Source of the DNA: an archaeon
GTDB taxonomy: Archaea > Nanobdellota > Nanobdellia > Woesearchaeales > GW2011-AR15
NCBI GenBank assembly: GCA_018671515.1
Contig: JABHHN010000045.1
Coordinates: 1 to 40,159, forward strand
DNA: 40,159 nucleotides
Direction of reading: 5' to 3'
The notes below the pieces were generated by a model. It made no database searches. It was not told the DNA's origin and saw only the letters and a program-made list of their open reading frames with translations. Shown one piece after another: positions 14,431-33,312 of this stretch (position 1 is the first letter of the stretch; each line of letters begins with the position of its first letter). Position numbers and translations under genes: made by a program.

Positions 14431-15771
14431 ATGTATGATATTGTAATAGGTAGAAGTAAGAAAGATCTTAAAAAACTAGGAACAAAAGGTTCAATATTTC
14501 TTGGAAAACATTATGTAAAAATGGGAAGGACTGAAAGTCTTTCAAACAAAGTCCATCTTGATATTTCTGGAGCACACGTCATTTTTATTTGTGGAAAAAG
14601 AGGTGGTGGTAAGTCTTATACTATGGGAGTTATTGCAGAAGGACTTGCTGATCTTGAAGAAGACATTAAAGAAAATTTGGCAATAATCATGCTTGATACC
14701 ATGGGGATTTACTGGACCATGAAATATGGTAATGATAAAGAAAAAGATCTTCTTGATGAATGGGGATTGAAATCTAAACCACTTCCTATTAGAATTTTTA
14801 CACCTATTGGTTATTATTATGAATATAAAGAAAAAGGTATTCCTACTGACTACCCATTCGCACTAAAACCTTCAGATCTAGATATTTCAGATTGGATTTT
14901 AACCTTTGGAATAGAAAGATATTCTCCAGTTGGTGTTCTACTTGAAAGAGTTACTTTTATATTAAAAAAAACAAAAGGATCTTTTGGTCTTGATGATATG
15001 ATTGAAGGAATAAAATCAGATACAACAAGTGATCAAAATACAAAAAATGCTGCAGAAAATATGATTAGAAATGTTGAAACTTGGAAATTATTTGATGAGA
15101 AAGGAATTGATCTAAACGACCTGGCTAAAGGTGGAGAAGTAAGTGTCCTTGATGTATCTTGTTATGCAACGCAACCAGGTGGATGGCAGATTAAATCATT
15201 AGTAGTAGGACTAGTTTCAAGAAAATTATTCATAAATAGAATGCTTGCAAGAAAAGATGAAGAATATGAGGAAGTACACAAATCAATCCATTATTTTTCA
15301 GATGATGATACTAATCAAAAACAAGAATTACCATTAATCTGGTTAGTAATTGATGAAGCACATGAATTTTTACCAGTTACAGGAAAAACTGCTGCGTCAG
15401 ATCCTTTAATTACAATACTTAGAGAAGGAAGACAACCAGGTATTTCATTGATACTTGCAACACAGCAACCAGGAAAAATACATACTGATGTAATGACGCA
15501 AAGTGATACAATTATTTCACATAGAATTACCGCTAAATTAGACACAGATGCATTAGGAATGTTAATGCAATCTTATATGAGAGATGGGATGGATAGATAC
15601 CTAAATGAACTTCCAAGGATAAAAGGATCAGCAATAATTCTTGATGATAATAATGAAAAGATGTATCCTATTCAGATAAGACCTAGATTCACATGGCATG
15701 GAGGAAGTAGTCCAACTGCTGTTAAGAAAAAGAAAAAAGCAATTGATCTTGATTTTAAAAAGAAATTATAG
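14431..15771 (+). CDS. HerA/VirB4-like P-loop ATPase, copy 1
   Basis: 446 aa, HerA/FtsK-superfamily ATPase (DUF87-like). Walker A GKRGGGKS is at 55-62, Walker B WLVIDEAHEF at 304-313, and an Arg/sensor region follows (ILREGRQPGISLILATQQPGKI). The sequence MTQSDTIISHRITAKLDTDAL after it is typical of HerA and VirB4 relatives. HerA proteins work as hexameric pumps on DNA or substrate proteins. There is no NurA nuclease gene next to it, which argues against the classical end-resection HerA. It is paralogous to the next gene, of equal length with long matching blocks. A basic C-terminal tail (VKKKKKAIDLDFKKK) is present only in this copy. Confidence 0.85.
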   Translation: MYDIVIGRSKKDLKKLGTKGSIFLGKHYVKMGRTESLSNKVHLDISGAHVIFICGKRGGGKSYTMGVIAEGLADLEEDIKENLAIIMLDTMGIYWTMKYGNDKEKDLLDEWGLKSKPLPIRIFTPIGYYYEYKEKGIPTDYPFALKPSDLDISDWILTFGIERYSPVGVLLERVTFILKKTKGSFGLDDMIEGIKSDTTSDQNTKNAAENMIRNVETWKLFDEKGIDLNDLAKGGEVSVLDVSCYATQPGGWQIKSLVVGLVSRKLFINRMLARKDEEYEEVHKSIHYFSDDDTNQKQELPLIWLVIDEAHEFLPVTGKTAASDPLITILREGRQPGISLILATQQPGKIHTDVMTQSDTIISHRITAKLDTDALGMLMQSYMRDGMDRYLNELPRIKGSAIILDDNNEKMYPIQIRPRFTWHGGSSPTAVKKKKKAIDLDFKKKL

Positions 15772-15851
15772 ATCTTGAATTTGATTTTATTTTTTAAATT
15801 TAACCATGTTTTTGATAATTATTATTTTAATATCTTTTTTTATCATTACTT

Positions 15852-15906
15852 AAAGAATTTTCTAAAAAGAAAATTCTTTTCTATAAGAAAGTGCAAAGCA
15901 CTTTCT
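15852..15906. repeat. Two adjacent perfect hairpins between HerA genes
   Basis: First: AAAGAATTTTC (15852-15862), loop TAAAAA, GAAAATTCTTT (15869-15879), 11 bp. Second: AGAAAGTGC (15886-15894), loop AAA, GCACTTTCT (15898-15906), 9 bp. They lie in the 265-bp gap after the first ATPase and before the TATA box of the second. They could be a terminator, a protein-binding site or remnants of a small mobile repeat. Confidence 0.7.
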
Positions 15907-15986
15907 AATTAATGATTATGAAATTTCATGTAAAAATACTCAGTAGTAAAATTCATAGTAATAAAACAAATATATTTTTCTCACAC

Positions 15987-15999
15987 AAAATATATAAAG
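15987..15999 (+). promoter_or_regulatory. TATA box, second HerA-like ATPase
   Basis: AAAATATATAAAG. The predicted start is near 16020, leaving a short leader that holds the AGAGG site at 16026-16030 before ATG 16037. It is nearly the same box as for copy 1 (AAATATATAAA). Confidence 0.5.
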
Positions 16000-16036
16000 A
16001 ATACTTCATAAATAATATACAAAAAAGAGGAAAATT

Positions 16037-17377
16037 ATGCTTGATCTAAAGACACCAATAATAATAGGACGTGGACCTGCTGATGCTAAAAAATATGGGC
16101 ATCGTGGATGTATTCTCCTTGGGAAAAAATATCAAGATACTGATGTATACAAGAGTGAACTATCAAATCCTGTTTTTATGGATGTTTCTGGTGCACATGT
16201 TGTATCAATCTTTGGAAAAAGAGGTGGTGGAAAATCATACACTATGGGTGTCATTGCTGAAGGATTCTCTTTATTAGAGGAAAAGGTTAAAAAAAATCTT
16301 TCTGTTATTCTACTAGACACTATGGGAATATATTGGACTATGTCTCATCCTAATGAAACCGATAGAAAGTTATTAGAAGAATATGATTTAATGCCAAGAT
16401 CAGTAAAATCTAGAATATTCACACCTATTAAATATCATGCAGAGTATAAGAAAAAAGGAATCCCTACAGATTATCCCTTTTCAATAAATCCAGCTGAACT
16501 TGATACTGACGACTGGCTTGTTACATTTAAACAAGATAAACATTCACCAATCGGTGTTCTTATTGAAGATGCAATATCTAAATTACAATCTATAAAACAA
16601 AAATATACTTTACAAGAAATTGTAAAAGAAATAAGAGACAATAAAGATTTTAGTCATGATAGTAAAATGGAAGCAGTCTCTATGTTTGAAGTTGCTGATA
16701 GATGGGGTGTATTTGGAGATATAAGTACAGATCTTAATTTTTTAGCAGCACCTGGTGAAATTACTGTTCTTGATGTATCTTGTTATGCAACAGAACCAGG
16801 TGGATGGGACATTAAAACAATGGTTGTTGGCCTTGTATCTAAACATTTATTTGTGTCTCGTATGCTTAAAAGAAAACAAGAAGAATATGATCAACTAAAA
16901 GAATCAACGAGTTTTTTTCATGATGGACATAATGTAGATATTAAGAAAAAAGAACATAATGATATGCCACTTGTCTGGCTTGTAATTGATGAAGCACATG
17001 AATTTCTTCCAAGAAAAGAAGAAGATGCAAATGCTGCAACTGAACCTCTAAAAATAATAATGAGAGAAGGAAGACAACCAGGAATTTCTTTAATAATTGC
17101 AACACAGCAACCTGGAAAGATACATACAGATGTAATGACGCAGTCTGATATGGTTTTATCCCATAGAATCACAGCAAATATTGATACTGAAGCATTATCA
17201 TTACTTGCTCAAAGTTATAATAGAGATGGACTTATTTCAGCAATGGAAGAACTACCAAGAATAAAAGGAACTGCAGTTGCATTTGATGATGCAAATGAAA
17301 AAATACATAAAATAAGAGTTCGACCTAGAATTTCATGGCATGGTGGTGGAAGCCCAAACGCATTAACTATGTTGTGA
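16037..17377 (+). CDS. HerA/VirB4-like P-loop ATPase, copy 2
   Basis: 446 aa, paralogue of the preceding gene. Walker A GKRGGGKS is at 60-67, with Walker B WLVIDEAHEFLP and the EGRQPGISLIIATQQPGKIHTD block. Both copies share HRITA and the C-terminal RPR.(F/S)WHGG.SP signature. Differences concentrate in the middle (about 150-210) and in an acidic/His insert before Walker B (FHDGHNVDIKKKEHND), suggesting different partners or a hetero-hexamer. It has its own TATA box and Shine-Dalgarno. It ends 8 bp from the convergent metzincin gene. Confidence 0.85.
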   Translation: MLDLKTPIIIGRGPADAKKYGHRGCILLGKKYQDTDVYKSELSNPVFMDVSGAHVVSIFGKRGGGKSYTMGVIAEGFSLLEEKVKKNLSVILLDTMGIYWTMSHPNETDRKLLEEYDLMPRSVKSRIFTPIKYHAEYKKKGIPTDYPFSINPAELDTDDWLVTFKQDKHSPIGVLIEDAISKLQSIKQKYTLQEIVKEIRDNKDFSHDSKMEAVSMFEVADRWGVFGDISTDLNFLAAPGEITVLDVSCYATEPGGWDIKTMVVGLVSKHLFVSRMLKRKQEEYDQLKESTSFFHDGHNVDIKKKEHNDMPLVWLVIDEAHEFLPRKEEDANAATEPLKIIMREGRQPGISLIIATQQPGKIHTDVMTQSDMVLSHRITANIDTEALSLLAQSYNRDGLISAMEELPRIKGTAVAFDDANEKIHKIRVRPRISWHGGGSPNALTML

Positions 17378-21422: not shown

Positions 21423-22025
21423 TCAAACCAAACTTATTCCTTTAATCAAGAGTTTTATAGAAAACACCATCAAAAATAATCCTAAAAACCTAATTGTATA
21501 AACAAAGTATTTTGATTTTAATAAAGATCTAGACTTGTTTATAAAATGAATAAATATAAAATTTGAAATAACAAATGTTCCTAATTCTAATACAACAAAA
21601 AGAAATCCTAATAGGAAACTTTTAGTTCCCAATATTATAGGTACTCCTATAGTTATCCAAAATATATACATATTTGGATTGAGATATTGAGTAATTATCG
21701 CCTTTTTGAAAGATTGAGGTTTTACTTTTTTAATACTTATCTCTACTTTCTTATAAACAATATTTTGTATTGCCATATACCCTAAAAACAAACCCCCAAG
21801 TAAAGATAGTCCACCAATAAACATATTTGATAAATTAGATAGAAAAAATATTGCTAAAAATATAATTGGTAAATCTGTAACAAAAGGAATTATTGCAACT
21901 TTCATACCTTCCTTCTTACCATGCTGCAGTGTTTCAGAAATAATTAATGCCATCAATGGACCAGGAATCATTGCTCCATTTATTCCTAAAATTATTGCTG
22001 TAACAAAAATTGATAAATCAACCAT
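21423..22025 (-). CDS. LysE/RhtB-family amino acid exporter, copy 2
   Basis: 200 aa with about six membrane segments. The N-terminal NGAMIPGPLMALIISETLQHGKK contains the family PGP motif, followed by the IPFVTD segment. LysE/RhtB proteins expel amino acids or their derivatives. It is closely related to the upstream copy (shared LIISETLQHG.KEGMKVAI), so a local duplication. Last gene of the trp-region transcript, 21 bp after its sister, with an AAGGT site before its ATG. Confidence 0.87.
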   Translation of the reverse strand: MVDLSIFVTAIILGINGAMIPGPLMALIISETLQHGKKEGMKVAIIPFVTDLPIIFLAIFFLSNLSNMFIGGLSLLGGLFLGYMAIQNIVYKKVEISIKKVKPQSFKKAIITQYLNPNMYIFWITIGVPIILGTKSFLLGFLFVVLELGTFVISNFIFIHFINKSRSLLKSKYFVYTIRFLGLFLMVFSIKLLIKGISLV

Positions 22026-22046
22026 ATTTAATACCTTAATAAACCT

Positions 22047-22664
22047 CTAAATAACTCCAATCAAACCCAATCCATTCTTTCCCAGATACAAAGCATACAC
22101 AAACAATAATCCACCAAGCACTCTCATTGTTAAAATATATTCTCTACTTTTTAGAACTTTCCTTGCTTTACCAACTAATAATACCCATCCTAAATTTATC
22201 CCTATTACAACTGTATAAAATGATATTAAAAAAGAACTTTTCATACCTAAATTTGGTGCTTTAATAATAATCGGTGCAGCTATTGAAAACCAAAATATGT
22301 ATAGATTTGGATTAAGAAGATTTGTTGTTATTCCTTTGATTAATGACTGTGGTTTTACTTTTTTTATATCTATTTTTACTTCTTTTAATTTAAGCATAGT
22401 TATTGCAAGATATGTCAAATAACTGCCCCCAATCAATGAAACAATTCCTGTAAACGTTGTAATTTGTGAAAGTCTTGATGTAATGATTATTGCTATAATC
22501 ATCACAGGAGCATCAGTTATAAGTGGAGCAATAGCAACTTTCATACCCTCTTTTATTCCATGTTGTAATGTCTCAGAAATTATAAGTGCTAAAAGTGGAC
22601 CAGGAGATATACCTGCAGCTATTCCAAAAATTATACCTGAAACTATTAAAGAAAAATCAAACAT
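22047..22664 (-). CDS. LysE/RhtB-family amino acid exporter, copy 1
   Basis: 205 aa with six predicted membrane segments, ISPGPLLALIISETLQHG near the N-terminus and a TDAPVMI segment. It lies 2 bp after trpS and so is translated from the same message as the Trp genes. Export of tryptophan, an intermediate such as anthranilate or another amino acid is possible; co-transcription favours an aromatic or indole-related cargo, as inference only. Confidence 0.87.
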   Translation of the reverse strand: MFDFSLIVSGIIFGIAAGISPGPLLALIISETLQHGIKEGMKVAIAPLITDAPVMIIAIIITSRLSQITTFTGIVSLIGGSYLTYLAITMLKLKEVKIDIKKVKPQSLIKGITTNLLNPNLYIFWFSIAAPIIIKAPNLGMKSSFLISFYTVVIGINLGWVLLVGKARKVLKSREYILTMRVLGGLLFVYALYLGKNGLGLIGVI

Positions 22665-22666
22665 AA

Positions 22667-24439
22667 TTAATCCCTTAACATGAATTTTTCAATATTTTTT
22701 CTTGCAATTTCTTTTTTCTTTCTATGTTCTTCCAAGAAATTATTTAGTTTATCAATTAATATCTGTTTTAATTCACCAGAAAGTAATTTTCCAGATTTAT
22801 AATCATTATAGATTTTTTCAAGCTTCTTATCATCTTCCTCAAAGAATGTCAACCATTGATATGAAACATCAATATCTGGATTTCCACCAAATTTTCTATG
22901 TTCTTCAAGTGTATCTCCTCCACCCGAAAAAGCATGCTTCATTATCTTCTTTCTTACAGTCTTTGGAGAGTCATCAGTAAATATTGCTGTGCTTTCTGCT
23001 GAAGATGACATTTTCCCTTGTGCGCCCATTCCTTGTAATCCTGGAAGGAATCTACAAAGTATTGTTGCAGGTTTATAATACCCTAAACTCTCAGCAACAT
23101 CTCTTGTCAATCTGAAATGTACATCTTGATCAATTGCACAAGGAATCAAAACTCTTGTCTTTTTCTTCTCCATTACACTTGGAAGAACTGCTGGAACTGA
23201 CTGCATTGCTGTATAGAATATTATTCCAATATTTTTATCATTTCCAAATCCAAATGTTGATTTTATTGTTGAAAAAGTTATTTTTTTTGCTATTTTACAT
23301 GCATGAGAATACATGTGTCCTGCATATTCAGTATTTAGGAAAATATGTGTCTTTTTTGGATCAAATCCAAGTGCAATTATATCCAATATATTTTCATACG
23401 CCCATTTCTTTGTCTCTGCCAAAGTAAGATTATCTTTTGCCAAAAACTTTTCTTCATCAGGAATCTGAAATAATAATGGTACATCAAATTTATCTTGCAA
23501 CCATTTTGTAAACATCCATACAAAAAGATGACCCATGTGAACAGGTCCACTTGGTGCTCGTCCAGTATAAAGATAAAACTTATCACCTTTCTTGTAGTCT
23601 TTTAGTATCTCATCAAAATACATATGTGAATAGAATATTTTTCTTTTCAAATATGGATGATCTGATTTTACAACTGATTTGAACTCTTTTAATATTTTAT
23701 TATCCAGTTTTTTTGTACCAAACTGTCTCACTAATTTATCATAATCAATATCTCCTTTTACATCCCATGGAGTCACAATAAAATTATTTGTTTCTTCTAC
23801 TTCAAAAAGTTCAATTGTTGTTTTTTCACCTGAAATAATTTTTGTATATTTTTTAATATCACTAACAATTTTATCTATATCATTATCACTTATACTAATG
23901 TCTGACCATACTAAAAAAAGAACATCTTTTGAATTTTTATCAATCAAAGTTGATTTTCCTGCACCATATAGATGACTGATTAATACTTCTTCTTTTTGTT
24001 TTAATAATATATCATCAGGTTTTATTTTCATAGATTTCCCATCCATGTAAATAAAATCTTCACCACCAATTGACAAATCAAATACTAATTTATCATCTAA
24101 TTTATCAATATCCTGAGCAGACATAATAGTACAATTCTTTAATTCTGTCATAAAAAATAAATCTTTTATTGCAGAATGTTTAGGAATTTCTTTTCCTTTA
24201 GCAATTGTTTTTAATTGATATTCTAATGGAAATGATTTATTATAATTCTTAAAAAACATAGAACGTTCTTCAATTTGTTCATTAAATTTATCAAAATTTT
24301 TCACAATATATTCTTCTACTTTCTTCTTTTCCTTTTCCAAATCTTTGCTATGTTTATTCTCCAAATTCTTTATAACAATACCATAAAATCTTGAATTTGG
24401 AAATTTTAGTGATAATCTTTTAGTTTTAGTTATTTTCAT
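22667..24439 (-). CDS. trpS: Tryptophanyl-tRNA synthetase fused to a B3/B4 domain
   Basis: 590 aa from ATG 24439, which has GAGGT 4 nt upstream; an upstream ATG at 24484 would overlap the previous gene by 32 bp. Residues about 215-590 are a complete archaeal/eukaryotic-type TrpRS: FIVTPWDV, HIGH-type HMGH at 301-304 and KMSSS at 476-480. It charges tRNA-Trp. Residues about 1-205 are a PheRS-beta-like B3/B4 domain: SFPLEYQLKTIAKGKEIP, a DxD-containing AQDIDKLDD, and GGEDFIYMDG. B3/B4 domains in PheRS edit mischarged tRNA and also occur alone. TrpRS has no known editing domain, so the fusion is notable. Both parts are in one frame with no repeat at the joint. Confidence 0.88.
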   Translation of the reverse strand: MKITKTKRLSLKFPNSRFYGIVIKNLENKHSKDLEKEKKKVEEYIVKNFDKFNEQIEERSMFFKNYNKSFPLEYQLKTIAKGKEIPKHSAIKDLFFMTELKNCTIMSAQDIDKLDDKLVFDLSIGGEDFIYMDGKSMKIKPDDILLKQKEEVLISHLYGAGKSTLIDKNSKDVLFLVWSDISISDNDIDKIVSDIKKYTKIISGEKTTIELFEVEETNNFIVTPWDVKGDIDYDKLVRQFGTKKLDNKILKEFKSVVKSDHPYLKRKIFYSHMYFDEILKDYKKGDKFYLYTGRAPSGPVHMGHLFVWMFTKWLQDKFDVPLLFQIPDEEKFLAKDNLTLAETKKWAYENILDIIALGFDPKKTHIFLNTEYAGHMYSHACKIAKKITFSTIKSTFGFGNDKNIGIIFYTAMQSVPAVLPSVMEKKKTRVLIPCAIDQDVHFRLTRDVAESLGYYKPATILCRFLPGLQGMGAQGKMSSSAESTAIFTDDSPKTVRKKIMKHAFSGGGDTLEEHRKFGGNPDIDVSYQWLTFFEEDDKKLEKIYNDYKSGKLLSGELKQILIDKLNNFLEEHRKKKEIARKNIEKFMLRD

Positions 24440-25831: not shown

Positions 25832-26673
25832 TTTTGTGCAATCAAGAATAATATTCCTGGACCTATTCTTTCATAATATTTTATATTCATTTTTTCTTGT
25901 ATTGATTCTCTAATTTTTTTATAATCCCTAAAAAATTCAATACCATGAAATAGAGGTTGTCTATGTGTATGATTAAATGTCATCTTATCTTCTATTTCAA
26001 TCTTATCAGTCAGATCTAAATAATAAAATAATCCATCTTTCTTTAATATTCGAAATACTTCTTGAATGAATGTTTCAAAATTCTCAACATGATGACCCAC
26101 AATAGAACATTCAACAATGTCAATAGAATTATCTTCAATTCTTAATTTATTATCTTCTGAAATATCATTTAAATCAAATGGTGGATGAATCTCTAATTGT
26201 GGTATGCATTTTTTTGATTCTTTAAGGAATTTTTGATGGATGTCAATCCCAATTATTGAACTTGTATTTGTCAAATATTTAGTATAACCATATGCAGTTT
26301 TTCCATCTCCAATTCCAATAGAAACAACTTTTAGATTCTCTTTTTTCTTAATCTGTTCTGAAATTTTCTCTATCAATAAATTTTGTCCAAATTTAATCTG
26401 ATTTACTTTTCTATTATCTTTTTCAAAATCAAAATTTTTACCAAATTCTAAATTATTCTGAATATTTTGTTCATCAACATGTAATTTTTTTGAATTTTTT
26501 ATATATTCTAATAAAATTTCTTCTGGAAAAATGTCTTCTAAATTAACATATTCTTCATTTAGCTTTGATAATTTTAGATAATTTGTATAATTCTTGTTCA
26601 AAATAAGATAGACATCTCTGACTTGCTTTGCAAAATCTACTGTTTCTATTTTATTATCATCTTTTAATTTCAT
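25828..26673 (-). CDS. SAM-dependent methyltransferase
   Basis: 281 aa. A non-catalytic helical N-terminus (about 1-90) precedes motif I VVSIGIGDGKTAYGY and IIGIDIHQKFL. The later IVECSIVGHHVENFETFI and LKKDGLFYYLDL blocks are typical of class I small-molecule methyltransferases. The target is unknown. It overlaps trpA by 4 bp and YggS by 4 bp and so is the first gene after the Trp enzymes. Not similar in detail to the second methyltransferase. Confidence 0.8.
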   Translation of the reverse strand: MKLKDDNKIETVDFAKQVRDVYLILNKNYTNYLKLSKLNEEYVNLEDIFPEEILLEYIKNSKKLHVDEQNIQNNLEFGKNFDFEKDNRKVNQIKFGQNLLIEKISEQIKKKENLKVVSIGIGDGKTAYGYTKYLTNTSSIIGIDIHQKFLKESKKCIPQLEIHPPFDLNDISEDNKLRIEDNSIDIVECSIVGHHVENFETFIQEVFRILKKDGLFYYLDLTDKIEIEDKMTFNHTHRQPLFHGIEFFRDYKKIRESIQEKMNIKYYERIGPGILFLIAQK

Positions 26674-27464
26674 AAAACATCCCTAATACTAATAATAAAA
26701 TCTGATACTTCATTTAAACATTTCTCTTCATCTGTGATTTTATCATCTTTAATGTATTTTTCATAGATTTTTGCAATAGCACTTCCTATGATTACTCCAT
26801 CTGAACCATATCCAATCATCTTTTTTGATATTTTTGTGTCTGATATCCCAAAACCAGTCATTACTGGGATATTTTTTATTGATTTTATCTGTTCAATTTT
26901 TTGCTTTGTCAAATTATCTACTACTTCTGCACCTGTAACATTTGATGTCCTCATAAGATATACAAATCCTTTTGCAATGGAAAGGATTTTTTTCATCCTT
27001 TCTTCATTTGTATAAGGTGTGATTATGAAAATAAAATACACTTCATTTTCTTCACATGATTTTATAAGATCTCCTGCTTCTTCTAATACAATATCGGGAA
27101 CAATTATTCCCTGCACATTTCTTTGTTTTAATTCATTAACAAATTTTTCAATTCCATATTGTAATATAACATTATAATAAGTTGTAATAACAATTGGTAT
27201 ATTCTCATTATATTTCCTTATCTTACCAATTGATTTCAAAACATCAATTGGTGTTGTTTTTCCCGCCAATGCCCTTATACATGCTTTCTGAAATGTCTCT
27301 CCATCAACTTGTGGATCTGAAAATGGTATCCCTAATTCAAGTATATCTATTCCTGAATCAATCATTTGTTTTATCAGTCTATGTGAAAATTCTTTATCAG
27401 GATCCCCATAATAAACATGTGCCATAAATCTGTTCTTTCCAAAAAAATTATCTAGTTTATTCAT
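26670..27464 (-). CDS. trpA: Tryptophan synthase alpha subunit
   Basis: 264 aa, normal length. It cleaves indole-3-glycerol phosphate to indole for TrpB. The catalytic Glu is in ILELGIPFSDP and the Asp in the following PQVDGETFQKA. The N-terminal RFMAHVYYGDPDKEF form is the one seen in several archaea. Later motifs PVMTGFGISD and GVIIGSAIAK bind the substrate phosphate. An AAGGTG site precedes the ATG. Two bases separate it from trpB. Confidence 0.93.
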   Translation of the reverse strand: MNKLDNFFGKNRFMAHVYYGDPDKEFSHRLIKQMIDSGIDILELGIPFSDPQVDGETFQKACIRALAGKTTPIDVLKSIGKIRKYNENIPIVITTYYNVILQYGIEKFVNELKQRNVQGIIVPDIVLEEAGDLIKSCEENEVYFIFIITPYTNEERMKKILSIAKGFVYLMRTSNVTGAEVVDNLTKQKIEQIKSIKNIPVMTGFGISDTKISKKMIGYGSDGVIIGSAIAKIYEKYIKDDKITDEEKCLNEVSDFIISIRDVL

Positions 27465-27466
27465 TT

Positions 27467-28645
27467 TTACACCTTAATATCTAGCAAATTTATTGCGCTC
27501 TGTACATCTTTATCTCCTCTTCCTGAAAAATTCAAAACTACAATCTCATCTTTGTCTAATTTTCCTTCTAATTTTAGAAGATAAGCTATTGCGTGTGATG
27601 TTTCAAATGCAGGAAGAATTCCTTCTTCTTTTGACATTATTTGAAATGCAACAAGTACTTCTTCATCTGTTGCATATTCTGTCTTCATTCGTCCTTTATC
27701 TTTCAAATAAGATAGTTCTGGTCCCCTTGCAGGATAATTAAGCCCTGTTGCTCTACTTTCTGTCTTTGAATCCATTCCAAATTCATCTTGAAGCATGTAT
27801 GTCATTGCACCTTGAAAAACACCTGGGCTTCCCTTAAAAAATGCTGCTGCATGTTTTTCATCTACTGCATTTTTTCCTCCACCTTCAACAAATATTAATT
27901 CTACTTCCTCATCATCAATGAATTCATAAAATGCACCTAAAGCATTGCTTCCTCCACTTCCACATGCAATTATTTTATTTGGTAGTTTTCCCTCAGATTC
28001 CATTATCTGAGATTTTATTTCCTTACCGATTATAGATTGAAAATGTCTAACAATTGTTGGATATGGATGTGGTCCAACTGCAGAACCTATTACATAATGA
28101 CTTGTTTCATTATTTACAATCCATTCAACTAATGCTTCATCAACTGCATCTTTTAGGACTTGATGTCCACGTGTAACTGGAATGACTTCTCCTCCCAATA
28201 ATTTTATTCTTTCAGCATTTAATGTCTGTCTTTTAGTATCTTTTAATCCCATGAATACTTTTGTCTTTAATCCAAAAGCATTACCTGCCATTACAGTTGC
28301 TACACCTTGCTGTCCTGCTGCAGTTTCAGTAATAAAATGTTTTTTTCCCATTTTTTTTGCAAGTAAAGCCTGACCTATAGTGTTATTTAATTTATGAGAA
28401 CCACCATGAACAAGATCTTCTCTTTTTAGATAAAGTTTGAATCCAAGTTTTTTAGATAGGTTTTTTGCAAAATAAAGAGGAGTCTCTCTACCTGCAAAAT
28501 TTTTCAGATAGTATTGAAACTCTTTATTGAAATTTTCATCATCCTTAAATTTAATAAAAGCTTCTTCTAATTCCTCTAATGCAGTATATAATATTTCAGG
28601 TACAAACATACCACCAAATTTACCGAATTTACCTAATGATTTCAA
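27467..28645 (-). CDS. trpB: Tryptophan synthase beta subunit
   Basis: 392 aa, TrpB1-type. The PLP lysine is in GGSHKLNNTIGQALLAK and the phosphate loop in CGSGGSNALGAF. HFITETAAGQQG and NFSGRGDKDV are also present. It condenses indole with serine. The start is TTG, supported by AGGGGTG upstream, and it overlaps the trpF stop by 4 bp. It partners with the adjacent trpA. Confidence 0.96.
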   Translation of the reverse strand: MKSLGKFGKFGGMFVPEILYTALEELEEAFIKFKDDENFNKEFQYYLKNFAGRETPLYFAKNLSKKLGFKLYLKREDLVHGGSHKLNNTIGQALLAKKMGKKHFITETAAGQQGVATVMAGNAFGLKTKVFMGLKDTKRQTLNAERIKLLGGEVIPVTRGHQVLKDAVDEALVEWIVNNETSHYVIGSAVGPHPYPTIVRHFQSIIGKEIKSQIMESEGKLPNKIIACGSGGSNALGAFYEFIDDEEVELIFVEGGGKNAVDEKHAAAFFKGSPGVFQGAMTYMLQDEFGMDSKTESRATGLNYPARGPELSYLKDKGRMKTEYATDEEVLVAFQIMSKEEGILPAFETSHAIAYLLKLEGKLDKDEIVVLNFSGRGDKDVQSAINLLDIKV

Positions 28646-29271
28646 AAATTAACACCCCTAATTATTTTTATTATTTCAAAAATTTTATTGTAATCTTTAA
28701 TTCCTGGTTTTTTCTCAACACCTGAACTTATATCAACCGCGTAAGGATTAATAGATTTTATTATTTTCTCTACATTATCAATATTTAATCCACCAGCAAT
28801 AAAAAATAATTTGTTGATATCTTTAATTTGTTTATAATTTATTTCAATCCCTGAGCCACCATATTTTCTTTTTGAAAAACTGTCAAAAAGAAAAAAATCA
28901 GCACCAATTAATTTCATTTTTAACAATGAGTTCTCATCTTTTATCTTTATAGTTTTAATAATTTTTTTATCAGTGAATTTTTTTATATTTTCAAAATATG
29001 AAACATTTTCATCACCATGAATCTGCAATAAATCAAGTCCACATAAATTTGATATATGAACTACATCTTCAAGACTTTTATTTACAAATACTCCAACAAA
29101 TTGTATTTTTGTTTTTCCAATTTTTAAGATTATATTTCTTGCATTTTCAGGAGTAATATATCTTGGACTTTTTTCATAGAAAATAAACCCAATATAATCT
29201 ATTTCATTATTTATACAAAATTTTGCATCAGCATAATTTGTTATCCCACATATCTTTATTTTTGGAATCAT
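28642..29271 (-). CDS. trpF: Phosphoribosylanthranilate isomerase
   Basis: 209 aa. It converts phosphoribosylanthranilate to CdRP. The catalytic Cys is in IKICGIT and the catalytic Asp lies in the LFDSFS block. VGVFVNK, LLQIHGDE, FFIAGGLN and VDISSGVEKKPG complete the (beta/alpha)8 barrel. Overlaps trpC and trpB by 4 bp each. Confidence 0.95.
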   Translation of the reverse strand: MIPKIKICGITNYADAKFCINNEIDYIGFIFYEKSPRYITPENARNIILKIGKTKIQFVGVFVNKSLEDVVHISNLCGLDLLQIHGDENVSYFENIKKFTDKKIIKTIKIKDENSLLKMKLIGADFFLFDSFSKRKYGGSGIEINYKQIKDINKLFFIAGGLNIDNVEKIIKSINPYAVDISSGVEKKPGIKDYNKIFEIIKIIRGVNF

Positions 29272-30056
29272 ACAATTAGCTCCATCATTTTATTTTCCAT
29301 ATTCTCACAAGTCATAAGACTAGTTCCAACAAGCACTGCATCTGCATTAGCATATTTGGCCTTCAAAACATCAGGCCTTGAAAATATCCCTGATTCACAT
29401 ACAATAATCTTGTCATCTGGTATAAATCTTGATAGATTGAGAAAATTATTAATATCAATATTAAATGTTTTAAGATCCCTATTATTAATTCCAATAATTT
29501 GTGCACCAGCTTCTATTGCTATTTCAATTTCAGTATATGAATGTGTTTCAACTAAACAATCCAAATCCAATGAATCTGCAATTTCTATTAATTTTTTTAA
29601 TTCATCTTTTGTTAATATTGATGCTATCAACAATATTGCATCTGCTCCATTTGCTTTTGATTCATATATTTGATATTCGTCAAATATGAAATCTTTTCTA
29701 AGCACAGGAAGAGGCACAATTTTTTTTATATCCCCAATAAATTTAATATCACCTTGAAAATATTTTTGATCTGTTAGTACAGATATTGCTGAAGCTCCAT
29801 AATCAAAATAATTTTTTGCAATTTTTTTATGGTCAAAATCTTCTTTTATCAATCCCATTGAAGGAGATACTTTCTTGATTTCTGCAATTAGAGCTATCTT
29901 ATTTTTTTTAAGACTCTCTTTAAAGCTTGATTTAAAAAAATTACTTTGGGATATTTTTTCTTTTATTATTTCTATTGAAAATTCTTTTTTTCTTTTTTCC
30001 AGTTCTCCTTTTTTGTGCTCAATTATTTGATCAAGAATTGTATTAGTTATTTTCAT
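29268..30056 (-). CDS. trpC: Indole-3-glycerol phosphate synthase
   Basis: 262 aa from ATG 30056, preferred because AAGGTGA sits 5 nt upstream; an earlier ATG at 30071 lacks a good site. It closes CdRP to indole-3-glycerol phosphate. ALIAEIKKVSPSMGLI carries the catalytic Lys; VLRKDFIFDEYQIYES, GINNRDLKTFNID and CESGIFSRPDV are the other active-site blocks. It overlaps the end of trpD by 14 bp. Confidence 0.95.
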   Translation of the reverse strand: MKITNTILDQIIEHKKGELEKRKKEFSIEIIKEKISQSNFFKSSFKESLKKNKIALIAEIKKVSPSMGLIKEDFDHKKIAKNYFDYGASAISVLTDQKYFQGDIKFIGDIKKIVPLPVLRKDFIFDEYQIYESKANGADAILLIASILTKDELKKLIEIADSLDLDCLVETHSYTEIEIAIEAGAQIIGINNRDLKTFNIDINNFLNLSRFIPDDKIIVCESGIFSRPDVLKAKYANADAVLVGTSLMTCENMENKMMELIV

Positions 30057-31068
30057 TTGTTTCACCTTCATTTGTTTCTTTGATTAATTGATTTAATTTT
30101 TGTAATGCATTGCCTGTTTCAATTGATTTTTCTGCTAATTTAATTCCTTCTTCTATTGAATCTACAATTCCTGAAACATATATTGCTGCCGCTGCATTTA
30201 GAACTACAATATCTCTTTTTGGTCCTTTATCACCTTGTAAAATACTTAAAATAATTTGTTTGTTTTCTTGTGGTGTTCCACCTTTAATTTCATTAATACT
30301 TCCAGAATATCCATAATTTTCTGGATCTAAATTATAAGTATTTATTTCTCCATCTTTAATTTCAGTAATTTTTGTTTTTGAAAAATTTGAAATTTCATCC
30401 ATTCCATCTGAATTAACAATTAATGCATGTTTTGTTCCTATTTCTTTTAAGACTTCTGCAATTTTTTCACTCAATGAATTATCATATACCCCTATGACTT
30501 GTCTTTTTACATTTGCGGGATTACATAGTGGCCCAAGAAAATTAAATATTGTTCTAAACCCTAATTCTTTTCTTATTTTTCCTACATGTTTAAATGAAGG
30601 ATGATATATTGGAGCAAACATAAAACAAATCCCTATTTTTTCTAAAATATTTTTATTTTTTTGGGGAGATATGTTTAATTTTACACCTAATGATTCTAAA
30701 ACATCTGCTGATCCACATTTTGATGAAGCACTTCTATTTCCGTGTTTTGCTACAGGTACTCCTGCTCCTGCTACTACAAAAGAAACTGCAGTAGATATAT
30801 TGAATGTTCCAGAATTATCTCCACCTGTTCCACATGTATCAACCATATTTTTTACATCAGTGTCAATCATTACTGCCTTGGATCTAATAACATTTAGTGC
30901 AAAAATTATTTCTTCATTTGTTGCTCCTTTTATCTGTAATGCTGTTAAAAAAGATGCTACTTGTGATTCTTCTAAACCTCCAGACATTATTTTTTCAAAT
31001 GCATACTTTGTTTCTAATTCATCTAAATTTTCTTTTTCAACCAATTTTTTTAAGATGTTTTTTATCAT
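30043..31068 (-). CDS. trpD: Anthranilate phosphoribosyltransferase
   Basis: 341 aa. It joins anthranilate to PRPP. The PRPP loop is DTCGTGGDNSGTFNIST, followed by the conserved KHGNRSASSKCGSADVLE and the Mg-binding region around VNSDGMDEIS. ATG start with GGTGAGAG upstream. Overlaps trpG by 4 bp and trpC by 14 bp. Confidence 0.96.
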   Translation of the reverse strand: MIKNILKKLVEKENLDELETKYAFEKIMSGGLEESQVASFLTALQIKGATNEEIIFALNVIRSKAVMIDTDVKNMVDTCGTGGDNSGTFNISTAVSFVVAGAGVPVAKHGNRSASSKCGSADVLESLGVKLNISPQKNKNILEKIGICFMFAPIYHPSFKHVGKIRKELGFRTIFNFLGPLCNPANVKRQVIGVYDNSLSEKIAEVLKEIGTKHALIVNSDGMDEISNFSKTKITEIKDGEINTYNLDPENYGYSGSINEIKGGTPQENKQIILSILQGDKGPKRDIVVLNAAAAIYVSGIVDSIEEGIKLAEKSIETGNALQKLNQLIKETNEGETNENN

Positions 31069-31673
31069 CTTTCTCTCACCATCTTGATTATATTCTGAAT
31101 TAATATTCCACCTTCTGGTGTAAGAATAGATTCTGGATGAAATTGAACACCTTCAACAAAATAATCAATATGGCGTACTCCCATAACTATTCCATCTTTT
31201 GTTTTTGAAGAAATTTCAAGAGATTCTGGTATGTCATAGCCAACTTGTGAATGATATCGTCCTCCAAGCATTGGATTGAATATTTTTTCATATATTGTTT
31301 TACCATCATGATATATTTTTGAATGTTTTCCATGAATTGGAATTGGTGCCCTATCAATTTTTCCACCAAATGCTTCTACAATACATTCATGTCCAAGACA
31401 GATTCCAAAAATAGGAATTTTATCATAAAATTCCAAAACTACTTCTTTACAGATTGGAACTTCTTTTGGAACATAACCACCAGGGGATATTACAATAAGA
31501 TCTATTTTTTCATCATTTACTATTTTTTTTATTGTATCAATTTTTACATTATTCCTATATACAATTACATTGCAATCATTCTTTTCAAATTCATCAACCA
31601 AATTAAAAGTAAATGAATCAAAATTATCAATAAAAAGAATGTTTAGTCTTTTTTCATTATTTGTATCATTCAT
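31065..31673 (-). CDS. trpG: Anthranilate synthase glutaminase component
   Basis: 202 aa, class I glutamine amidotransferase. The nucleophile Cys is in FGICLGHE and the His/Glu in VQFHPESILTPEGG. It feeds ammonia to TrpE. I prefer ATG 31673 because AGGTGG lies 5 nt upstream; a GTG at 31682 is possible but would overlap that ribosome site. Overlaps trpE by 8 bp. Confidence 0.95.
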   Translation of the reverse strand: MNDTNNEKRLNILFIDNFDSFTFNLVDEFEKNDCNVIVYRNNVKIDTIKKIVNDEKIDLIVISPGGYVPKEVPICKEVVLEFYDKIPIFGICLGHECIVEAFGGKIDRAPIPIHGKHSKIYHDGKTIYEKIFNPMLGGRYHSQVGYDIPESLEISSKTKDGIVMGVRHIDYFVEGVQFHPESILTPEGGILIQNIIKMVRER

Positions 31674-33312
31674 CAAAACCACCTGTAATTTTTAATGCCT
31701 TCATACAAGCCATAGCTTTTTTTGTTGTCTCATCAAATTCTTTTTCAGGAATTGAATCATATACTATCCCTGCACCTGCACGTACATAAGCCACATCGTC
31801 TTTTAATACCATAGAACGAATAACTATACATGAATCAATATCTTTTGAAGGTGTGATATAAATTACAGCACCGCCATAAAACCCACGTTTTGTTTTTTCA
31901 TATTGTCTTATTAATTCCATTGATCTTACTTTTGGTGCACCTGTAAGTGTTCCCATATTCATAGTTGCAAGATATGCATGTAATCCATCAAATTCTTTTT
32001 TTAATACACCACTTACATTTGAAACTAAATGCTGTACATGTGAGTATTTTTCAACAACAAATGATTCATCAACAACTCTTGTACCTGGAACTGATACTCT
32101 TGCAATATCATTTCTTGCTAAGTCAACAAGCATTGTATGTTCAGCAATTTCTTTTTCATCTGTCTTAATATCAATTTCATACCTAGAATCTAATTCCTTA
32201 TCTATTTCACCATTAACAATTCCTCTTGGTCTTGTTCCTGCAATTGGTCTAATTTCTACAATTTTTTTATCAGAATCTCCTTCAACCCTTAGATGCATTT
32301 CTGGACTTGCACCAATTAAAACTGAAGACCCAAAATTTTCATAGAACATATATGGAGAAGGATTAAGTTTTTTTAGTGTCTTATATATGTCAAAATTTTC
32401 TGTATTGATATTTGATTTTAATGTTCTTGAATAAACACATTGAAAAATATCACCTTGATTGATATTTTCTTTTATTTTTTCTACGTTTGTTATAAATTCT
32501 TCTTTTGAAACATCAGTTTTTATTTCTTGTTTTATTGATTTTCTTTCACTTAAATTAAATTCTATATCTTCATGAAGAATTTTTTCATAATTTTCTATTT
32601 TTTTTAAACATTCATCAAAAAGAGTTTCATGATCATCATCAAGCTTTATTGCATTTGCTACAAAATAAGTCTTTTTTTCTTTATGGTTTACAAAAAATAA
32701 ATTATCTAAAAAAAAAAATTCATAATCATTTTCATTTATTTCATCAATTTCATTTTTCTTAAGATCTTCAAACTGATCTATAAAATCATAAGATATTGCA
32801 CCAAATAATCCACCATAACATACAAATGGTTTGAATATTGGCTGGAATTTAAAAGCAAGAGTCCTAATGATATCAATATGTGTCTTAAGATTTAATCTAT
32901 CATCTTCAGTTACATTTTCTCTTTGTGGTTTTAATTTACCTGAAATACAATCTTCTTCAATTTTTAATTCATCACAAAAAGAAAAATCATCTTTCATGTA
33001 ATTTAATATTTTTTTTCCTAATTCATTTAATGCCTTTATGTTGAAGTTTTCTCCTTTACCTGTTAATCTTATACAAGGATCTGCACTTCCAATACTATTC
33101 TCACCATATTTTTTAACAACTGCTGCAGATTCTAAAAAAATACAATTTTCTTTTCTTCCATAGTCTGTTAGTTTTGCAAAAAATTCTTCTGGATCTATTG
33201 CCTTCTCTATTTTTTTATATAGTGGAACAATGCTTCCTAACTTTACCTGTTTTATCAGATTTCTAAAATAATCCGTGTTTCCATTTAAATTAAATTTTTG
33301 TCTTGATTGCAA
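31666..33312 (-). CDS. trpE: Anthranilate synthase component I
   Basis: 548 aa. It converts chorismate to anthranilate with TrpG. Catalytic blocks include GASPEMHLRVE, EIRPIAGTRPRG, EHTMLVDLARND, MGTLTGAPKVRSMELI and the C-terminal VRAGAGIVYDS. The N-terminal region carries the PLYKKI segment usually placed near the tryptophan feedback site. The start is TTG with an AGGTGAT site. First gene of the supra-operon, with a leader of about 185 nt if the TATA box at 33518 is used. No run of Trp codons was seen in that leader, so classical attenuation is not evident. Confidence 0.96.
   Translation of the reverse strand: MQSRQKFNLNGNTDYFRNLIKQVKLGSIVPLYKKIEKAIDPEEFFAKLTDYGRKENCIFLESAAVVKKYGENSIGSADPCIRLTGKGENFNIKALNELGKKILNYMKDDFSFCDELKIEEDCISGKLKPQRENVTEDDRLNLKTHIDIIRTLAFKFQPIFKPFVCYGGLFGAISYDFIDQFEDLKKNEIDEINENDYEFFFLDNLFFVNHKEKKTYFVANAIKLDDDHETLFDECLKKIENYEKILHEDIEFNLSERKSIKQEIKTDVSKEEFITNVEKIKENINQGDIFQCVYSRTLKSNINTENFDIYKTLKKLNPSPYMFYENFGSSVLIGASPEMHLRVEGDSDKKIVEIRPIAGTRPRGIVNGEIDKELDSRYEIDIKTDEKEIAEHTMLVDLARNDIARVSVPGTRVVDESFVVEKYSHVQHLVSNVSGVLKKEFDGLHAYLATMNMGTLTGAPKVRSMELIRQYEKTKRGFYGGAVIYITPSKDIDSCIVIRSMVLKDDVAYVRAGAGIVYDSIPEKEFDETTKKAMACMKALKITGGFDE

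Follow-up and report, generated by a model that had tools for sequence, protein, structure and literature searches.

An archaeal tryptophanyl-tRNA synthetase joined to an N-terminal B3/4 domain of the PheRS-beta editing and CtdA superfamily

A 590-residue protein encoded in the window, i.e., the 40,159-nucleotide stretch of contig JABHHN010000045.1 that was analysed, is best explained as an active tryptophanyl-tRNA synthetase (TrpRS) that has acquired an N-terminal module of the aminoacyl-tRNA deacylase type, belonging to the B3/4 (PheRS-beta editing/CtdA) superfamily. The gene is one open frame on the minus strand, from an ATG at 24439 to a stop codon at 22667 (Table 1).

The catalytic part was described in the initial annotation as a complete archaeal/eukaryotic TrpRS with HMGH and KMSSS, and the profile, both signatures and the fold search agree with this. 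The NCBIfam TrpRS profile matched residues 218-589 (E 3e-153, 510 bits against a cut-off of 478), and Foldseek matched the full-length AlphaFold2 model to yeast, human and P. horikoshii TrpRS at about 42-48% identity. Residues 221-590 are of the archaeal/eukaryotic type by full-length profile, signatures and fold, while the full-length model has a pTM of 0.69 and the placement of the B3/4 domain relative to TrpRS is uncertain in it. In the window genome, no TrpRS other than the fusion exceeds the family cut-off. No second ordinary TrpRS over the cut-off was found in the 11 genomes checked, which have one TrpRS each, and a fusion that is redundant beside an ordinary enzyme is thereby ruled out. 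The next-best matches to the profile, probably TyrRS, fell short of the cut-off at about 100 bits.

The N-terminal extension of about 200 residues had been likened to the B3/B4 domain of PheRS-beta and to a freestanding family. Profile search, structure prediction and fold search all support this identity, and the boundary was about right, as the domain covers residues 1-215. The Pfam B3_4 profile (PF03483) matched this region at E 3.6e-6 and, for the domain alone, 27.1 bits against a cut-off of 29.3; three fused homologues (G009, G006 and G008) and one free homologue (G046) scored over the cut-off, at 34.7-38.8 bits. The best PDB match of a profile made from eight TrpRS-type domains was the B3/4 domain of E. 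coli PheRS-beta (E 0.0023). The AlphaFold2 model of residues 1-216, predicted from an alignment of 28 sequences, had a pLDDT of 96.1 and a pTM of 0.90. Foldseek against the PDB placed CtdA first (9mkl and 9f7e; E about 1e-12, TM 0.84 and 0.80), followed by bacterial and then archaeal and eukaryotic PheRS-beta, with E values for PheRS-beta down to 5e-11. On the predicted model and these matches the domain has the B3/4 fold, and its assignment is more than a chance B3_4 similarity. A viral origin was also rejected, as no related protein was found in viral contigs.

An assembly artefact is ruled out by the same fusion architecture in seven other, independent genomes, so the assembly error that the initial annotation had listed as a refutation does not apply. 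The ATG start is backed by homologues that begin with MKI[TNK] at the same place. No ATG lies near the domain junction in the window gene, where the only candidate is a GTG inside the conserved FIVTPW motif. A separate internal translation start for the catalytic half was therefore rejected, and both halves are most likely translated together.

A survey of archaeal TrpRS for this architecture, as proposed in the initial annotation, found that the fusion recurs. The TrpRS-linked B3/4 domain is rare, being present in 10 of about 850 genomes searched. Eight of these have full-length fusions (G000, which is the window genome, G009, G005, G007, G002, G008, G006 and L098), and two have the domain as a separate gene: one of 222 residues with trpS directly after it (L102), and one of 231 residues about 1.6 kb before trpS (G046). 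Among 353 genomes from the order, 8 had a TrpRS-type domain at E below 1e-80, and the other matches were more distant B3/4 proteins with E above 1e-24. The window genome is part of a group for which the closest public genomes bear the names Woesearchaeota, Nanoarchaeota or Aenigmatarchaeota. B3/4-TrpRS has been kept in several genera and is linked to two TrpRS lineages. The nearest catalytic half, at 80% identity, is that of the complete genome GW2011_AR15 (G004), and it lacks the N-domain, which is therefore dispensable there. As in the fused relatives, a YggS-family gene is found just upstream of trpS in GW2011_AR15.

Table 1. Features of the B3/4-TrpRS gene and its surroundings in the window, and loci with B3/4 on other synthetases
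Feature	Position	Strand	Basis or remark
B3/4-TrpRS fusion gene, 590 aa	22667..24439	minus	Frame, translation, Pfam and NCBIfam profiles
N-terminal B3/4 domain, residues 1-215	23795..24439	minus	Pfam B3_4; AlphaFold2 pLDDT 96; Foldseek CtdA TM 0.84
FMTELK, residues 96-101	24137..24154	minus	F96 at B3/4 Asn (PheRS N-beta-250), E99 at Ser; both invariant in TrpRS-type
SAQD, residues 107-110	24110..24121	minus	Bacterial PheRS H-beta-261 position (S/A/D here), then H/Q109 and invariant D110
SHLYG, residues 155-159	23963..23977	minus	In place of CtdA-like (R)WNWR; invariant G159 lies roughly at PheRS G-beta-315/318
TrpRS part of archaeal/eukaryotic type (catalysis and anticodon binding), residues 221-590	22670..23779	minus	NCBIfam E 3e-153; Foldseek
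HMGH signature, residues 301-304	23528..23539	minus	Translation
KMSSS signature, residues 476-480	23000..23014	minus	Translation
trpE-G-D-C-F-B-A run, upstream of fusion	26670..33312	minus	Same strand as fusion; not linked to fusion in other genomes
B3/4-ProRS loci			L002, L048, L049
B3/4-PheRS-beta loci			L003, L050, L051, L055
B3/4-MetRS loci			L042, L056, L060, L083, L087, L088, L090, L182, L184, L190

The TrpRS-type domains form one clade (support 100/99) apart from freestanding B3/4 proteins and those linked to MetRS, ProRS, PheRS and LysRS, and this clade was found only with TrpRS, fused or near trpS, and with no other synthetase. The catalytic halves of the fusions are not one clade, and at least six fusion changes are needed on the TrpRS tree. 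G006 and G008 have a different TrpRS lineage (30-34% identity) under N-domains that are 34-53% identical to the rest; the N-domains of G002 and G006 are 53% identical and their catalytic halves 30%. The N-domain diverges faster than the catalytic half (41-45% against 80% identity). In AU tests on the same ten genomes for both halves, the N-domain data rejected a grouping of the window with G009 and G005 (p 0.0008), which the larger catalytic tree places together with AR15, while the catalytic data rejected the window with G007 (p 4.6e-5), a pairing that has 100/99 support in the N-domain data. These rejections in both directions show that the halves have been re-assorted while the domain stayed with TrpRS. 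The N-domain seems to go with tRNA-Trp and not with any one catalytic domain, and from the re-assortment we infer that its function is linked to tRNA-Trp or to charged forms of that tRNA.

Pocket positions were assigned by alignment only, with ten TrpRS-type domains compared to 36 others. Where PheRS has Asn-beta-250, all ten carry Phe (F96); in the comparison set 34 of 36 have Asn, CtdA and E. coli PheRS among them. Three residues further on, the TrpRS-type domains all show Glu (E99) at a position that is Ser in nearly every other domain. The His-beta-261 position is S, A or D, and no Glu was aligned at the Glu334 position in the TrpRS-type domains. The canonical PheRS-type site (Asn250/His261/Glu334, T. 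thermophilus numbering; PMC3275996) is thus absent, and since both Asn-beta-250 and His-beta-261 are missing, a PheRS-like hydrolytic site cannot be assumed for the TrpRS-type domain. Archaeal PheRS is also without His-beta-261 (PMC3275996). The TrpRS-type invariants are F96, E99, D110, G125, K140, D143 and G159, several of which lie at positions equivalent to the PheRS pocket, and D110 is preceded by H or Q, with His likewise in the MetRS-linked domains. Judged from this alignment, the pocket region has been remodelled and conserved, as opposed to having simply decayed.

The editing role proposed in the initial annotation is plausible: the likeliest single reading of the domain is cis-proofreading of mischarged tRNA-Trp (e.g., Phe-tRNA-Trp), to which we give an even chance. 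After tRNA-Trp has been charged by the catalytic half, the aminoacylated 3' end would swing into the B3/4 pocket, where wrongly loaded tRNA-Trp would be hydrolysed, most likely that carrying Phe, Tyr, or oxidised or otherwise modified Trp, while Trp would be spared. In origin the domain was probably a protein of its own, acting in trans and encoded close to trpS, that was later joined to trpS; it would then have remained with TrpRS as the catalytic half was exchanged or joined anew. In this scheme, tRNA-Trp binding, hydrolysis and the substrate are all what we infer for the N-domain. Points in favour of cis-editing are CtdA as the nearest solved fold, the single clade with its eight fusions and two copies near trpS, the two TrpRS lineages, the discordant histories of the halves, the pocket invariants, the sole TrpRS and the proofreading seen in an engineered class I TyrRS-B3/B4 chimera (PMC3275996). 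Furthermore, human TrpRS can form Phe-tRNA-Trp in human cells and TrpRS accepts hydroxy-Trp (PMC11415595), so a substrate to edit exists. The loss of the Asn, His and Glu334 equivalents, AR15 without the domain, the faster divergence and the rarity count against it.

The main rival, which is possible although we find it somewhat doubtful, is that a non-catalytic B3/4 fold has been retained as an additional site where tRNA-Trp binds or docks, to the benefit of aminoacylation. A direct precedent is the N-terminal AlaX-like domain of Plasmodium falciparum TrpRS, which has lost its catalytic residues and which the enzyme requires to bind and aminoacylate tRNA (PMC3680381), and the canonical residues are replaced here too (N to F, His gone). 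However, the TrpRS-type domains have gained new invariant polar residues, E99 and D110, at PheRS-pocket-equivalent positions instead of drifting, the domain stands as a gene of its own in two genomes, which does not resemble a mere RNA-binding appendage, and the AR15 TrpRS is presumably active without the domain.

B3/4 domains are not restricted to TrpRS, as Woesearchaeota relatives have them on five further synthetase types, namely MetRS, ProRS, PheRS-beta (an extra copy) and both LysRS classes. The domain lies between the anticodon-binding and tRNA_bind domains in MetRS, at the N-terminus in ProRS and at the C-terminus as the extra copy in PheRS-beta, and the last two are present in the window genome (L002 and L003). 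In LysRS class I it is N-terminal in L093 and C-terminal in L181, and in class II it is C-terminal (L180 and L183). Lysine thus resembles the TrpRS case, with B3/4 attached to catalytic domains that serve one amino acid but are unrelated to each other. L190 (1526-4525), which shares its genome with the separate B3/4 and trpS genes of L102, encodes in a single frame a 1000-aa MetRS that carries B3/4 and then an AlaXM domain for alanyl-tRNA editing, a warning that an editing module may act on something other than the product of the synthetase to which it is fused. Altogether, this spread suggests that DPANN archaea have in B3/4 a mobile module for quality control. We tentatively propose that the window gene is a natural TrpRS with a dedicated cis-editing B3/4 domain and a rebuilt site (Phe/Glu for Asn/Ser), and one case of a lineage-wide grafting onto the Trp, Met, Pro, Lys (both classes) and Phe synthetases.

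The domain could also be a tethered trans-editing factor that acts on another mischarged tRNA and whose fusion to TrpRS serves only its delivery or co-expression. CtdA edits the product of ArgRS though it is PheRS-related (PMC10018355, PMC11415595), and the AlaXM domain beside B3/4 on the L190 MetRS is a tRNA-Ala editor by family. We nevertheless consider this explanation unlikely, as the TrpRS-type clade is never found with another synthetase and occurs on two TrpRS lineages.

The trp run upstream of the fusion looks complete, which is unusual for a small-genome archaeon, and two methyltransferases and a YggS-family gene lie between it and the TrpRS gene. That the domain senses or regulates tryptophan or Trp-tRNA in connection with this adjacent operon is very improbable even though the fusion gene ends the trpEGDCFBA cluster, because trpB is absent from the domain-bearing G002, G007, G009 and G046 and is found beside an unfused trpS in G003; more generally, no link of the domain to tryptophan biosynthesis was found, as trpB presence does not track the domain. 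Two adjacent genes for LysE/RhtB-type amino-acid exporters (21423-22664) are located directly downstream of the TrpRS gene, and two similar 446-aa genes lie side by side at 14431-17377, with related genes near trpS in several relatives. Genes that look by sequence like the Asp/Glu racemase family are found near trpS in G046 and GW2011_AR15 (L037:6289-6996 and L038:8089-8823), and a D-amino-acid link is possible.

To our knowledge, TrpRS is generally listed among the synthetases without post-transfer editing. Only about half of the synthetases edit (PMC7373986). The recurrence of the domain, always beside or joined to TrpRS, suggests that tryptophan loading may be proofread in these archaea, and a natural B3/4-TrpRS makes it directly testable whether tRNA-Trp is ever proofread. 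The B3/4 superfamily and editing-type appendages are already known, and neither B3/4 on TrpRS nor its spread over several synthetases was found described in the literature, which is weak evidence since the string B3/4 itself is not searchable.

CtdA is a proven freestanding deacylase of canavanyl-tRNA-Arg (PMC10018355), and it shares the superfamily and the whole-domain fold with the TrpRS N-domain (PDB 9f7e and 9mkl, TM 0.84). However, it is freestanding, acts on tRNA-Arg and has 12% identity to the N-domain. The VDLYN...GGEN and CRRWNWRQ motifs of the two solved CtdA proteins are lacking in the TrpRS-type domain, where VDLYN and RRWNWR are replaced by xxxFM and SHLYG. The B3/4 domain of PheRS-beta, which performs post-transfer editing of Tyr-tRNA-Phe, is alike in fold, and the TrpRS-type loop around G-beta-318 is nearer in length to PheRS than to CtdA, but the Asn250, His261 and Glu334 equivalents are lost and the TrpRS host is a class I synthetase. 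The MetRS, ProRS, LysRS-I, LysRS-II and PheRS-beta fusions likewise have a B3/4 module appended to a synthetase, but their domains fall on separate tree branches and the aligned ones keep the canonical Asn. The initial annotation saw no functional match among other TrpRS extensions, which needs correcting in view of the N-terminal editing-type domain of apicomplexan TrpRS (PMC3680381), although this AlaX-like domain has an unrelated fold and is reported to be without metal ligands and to have a role in tRNA binding (PMC3680381). A comparable design is an engineered one from 2008, in which an iodo-TyrRS with a grafted PheRS B3/B4 domain proofreads (described in PMC3275996). It also places the PheRS B3/B4 module on a class I aromatic synthetase, but it is man-made, has canonical editing residues and edits Tyr-tRNA-Tyr. 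The B3/4 fusions are natural counterparts of this chimera and possible parts for engineering synthetase specificity.
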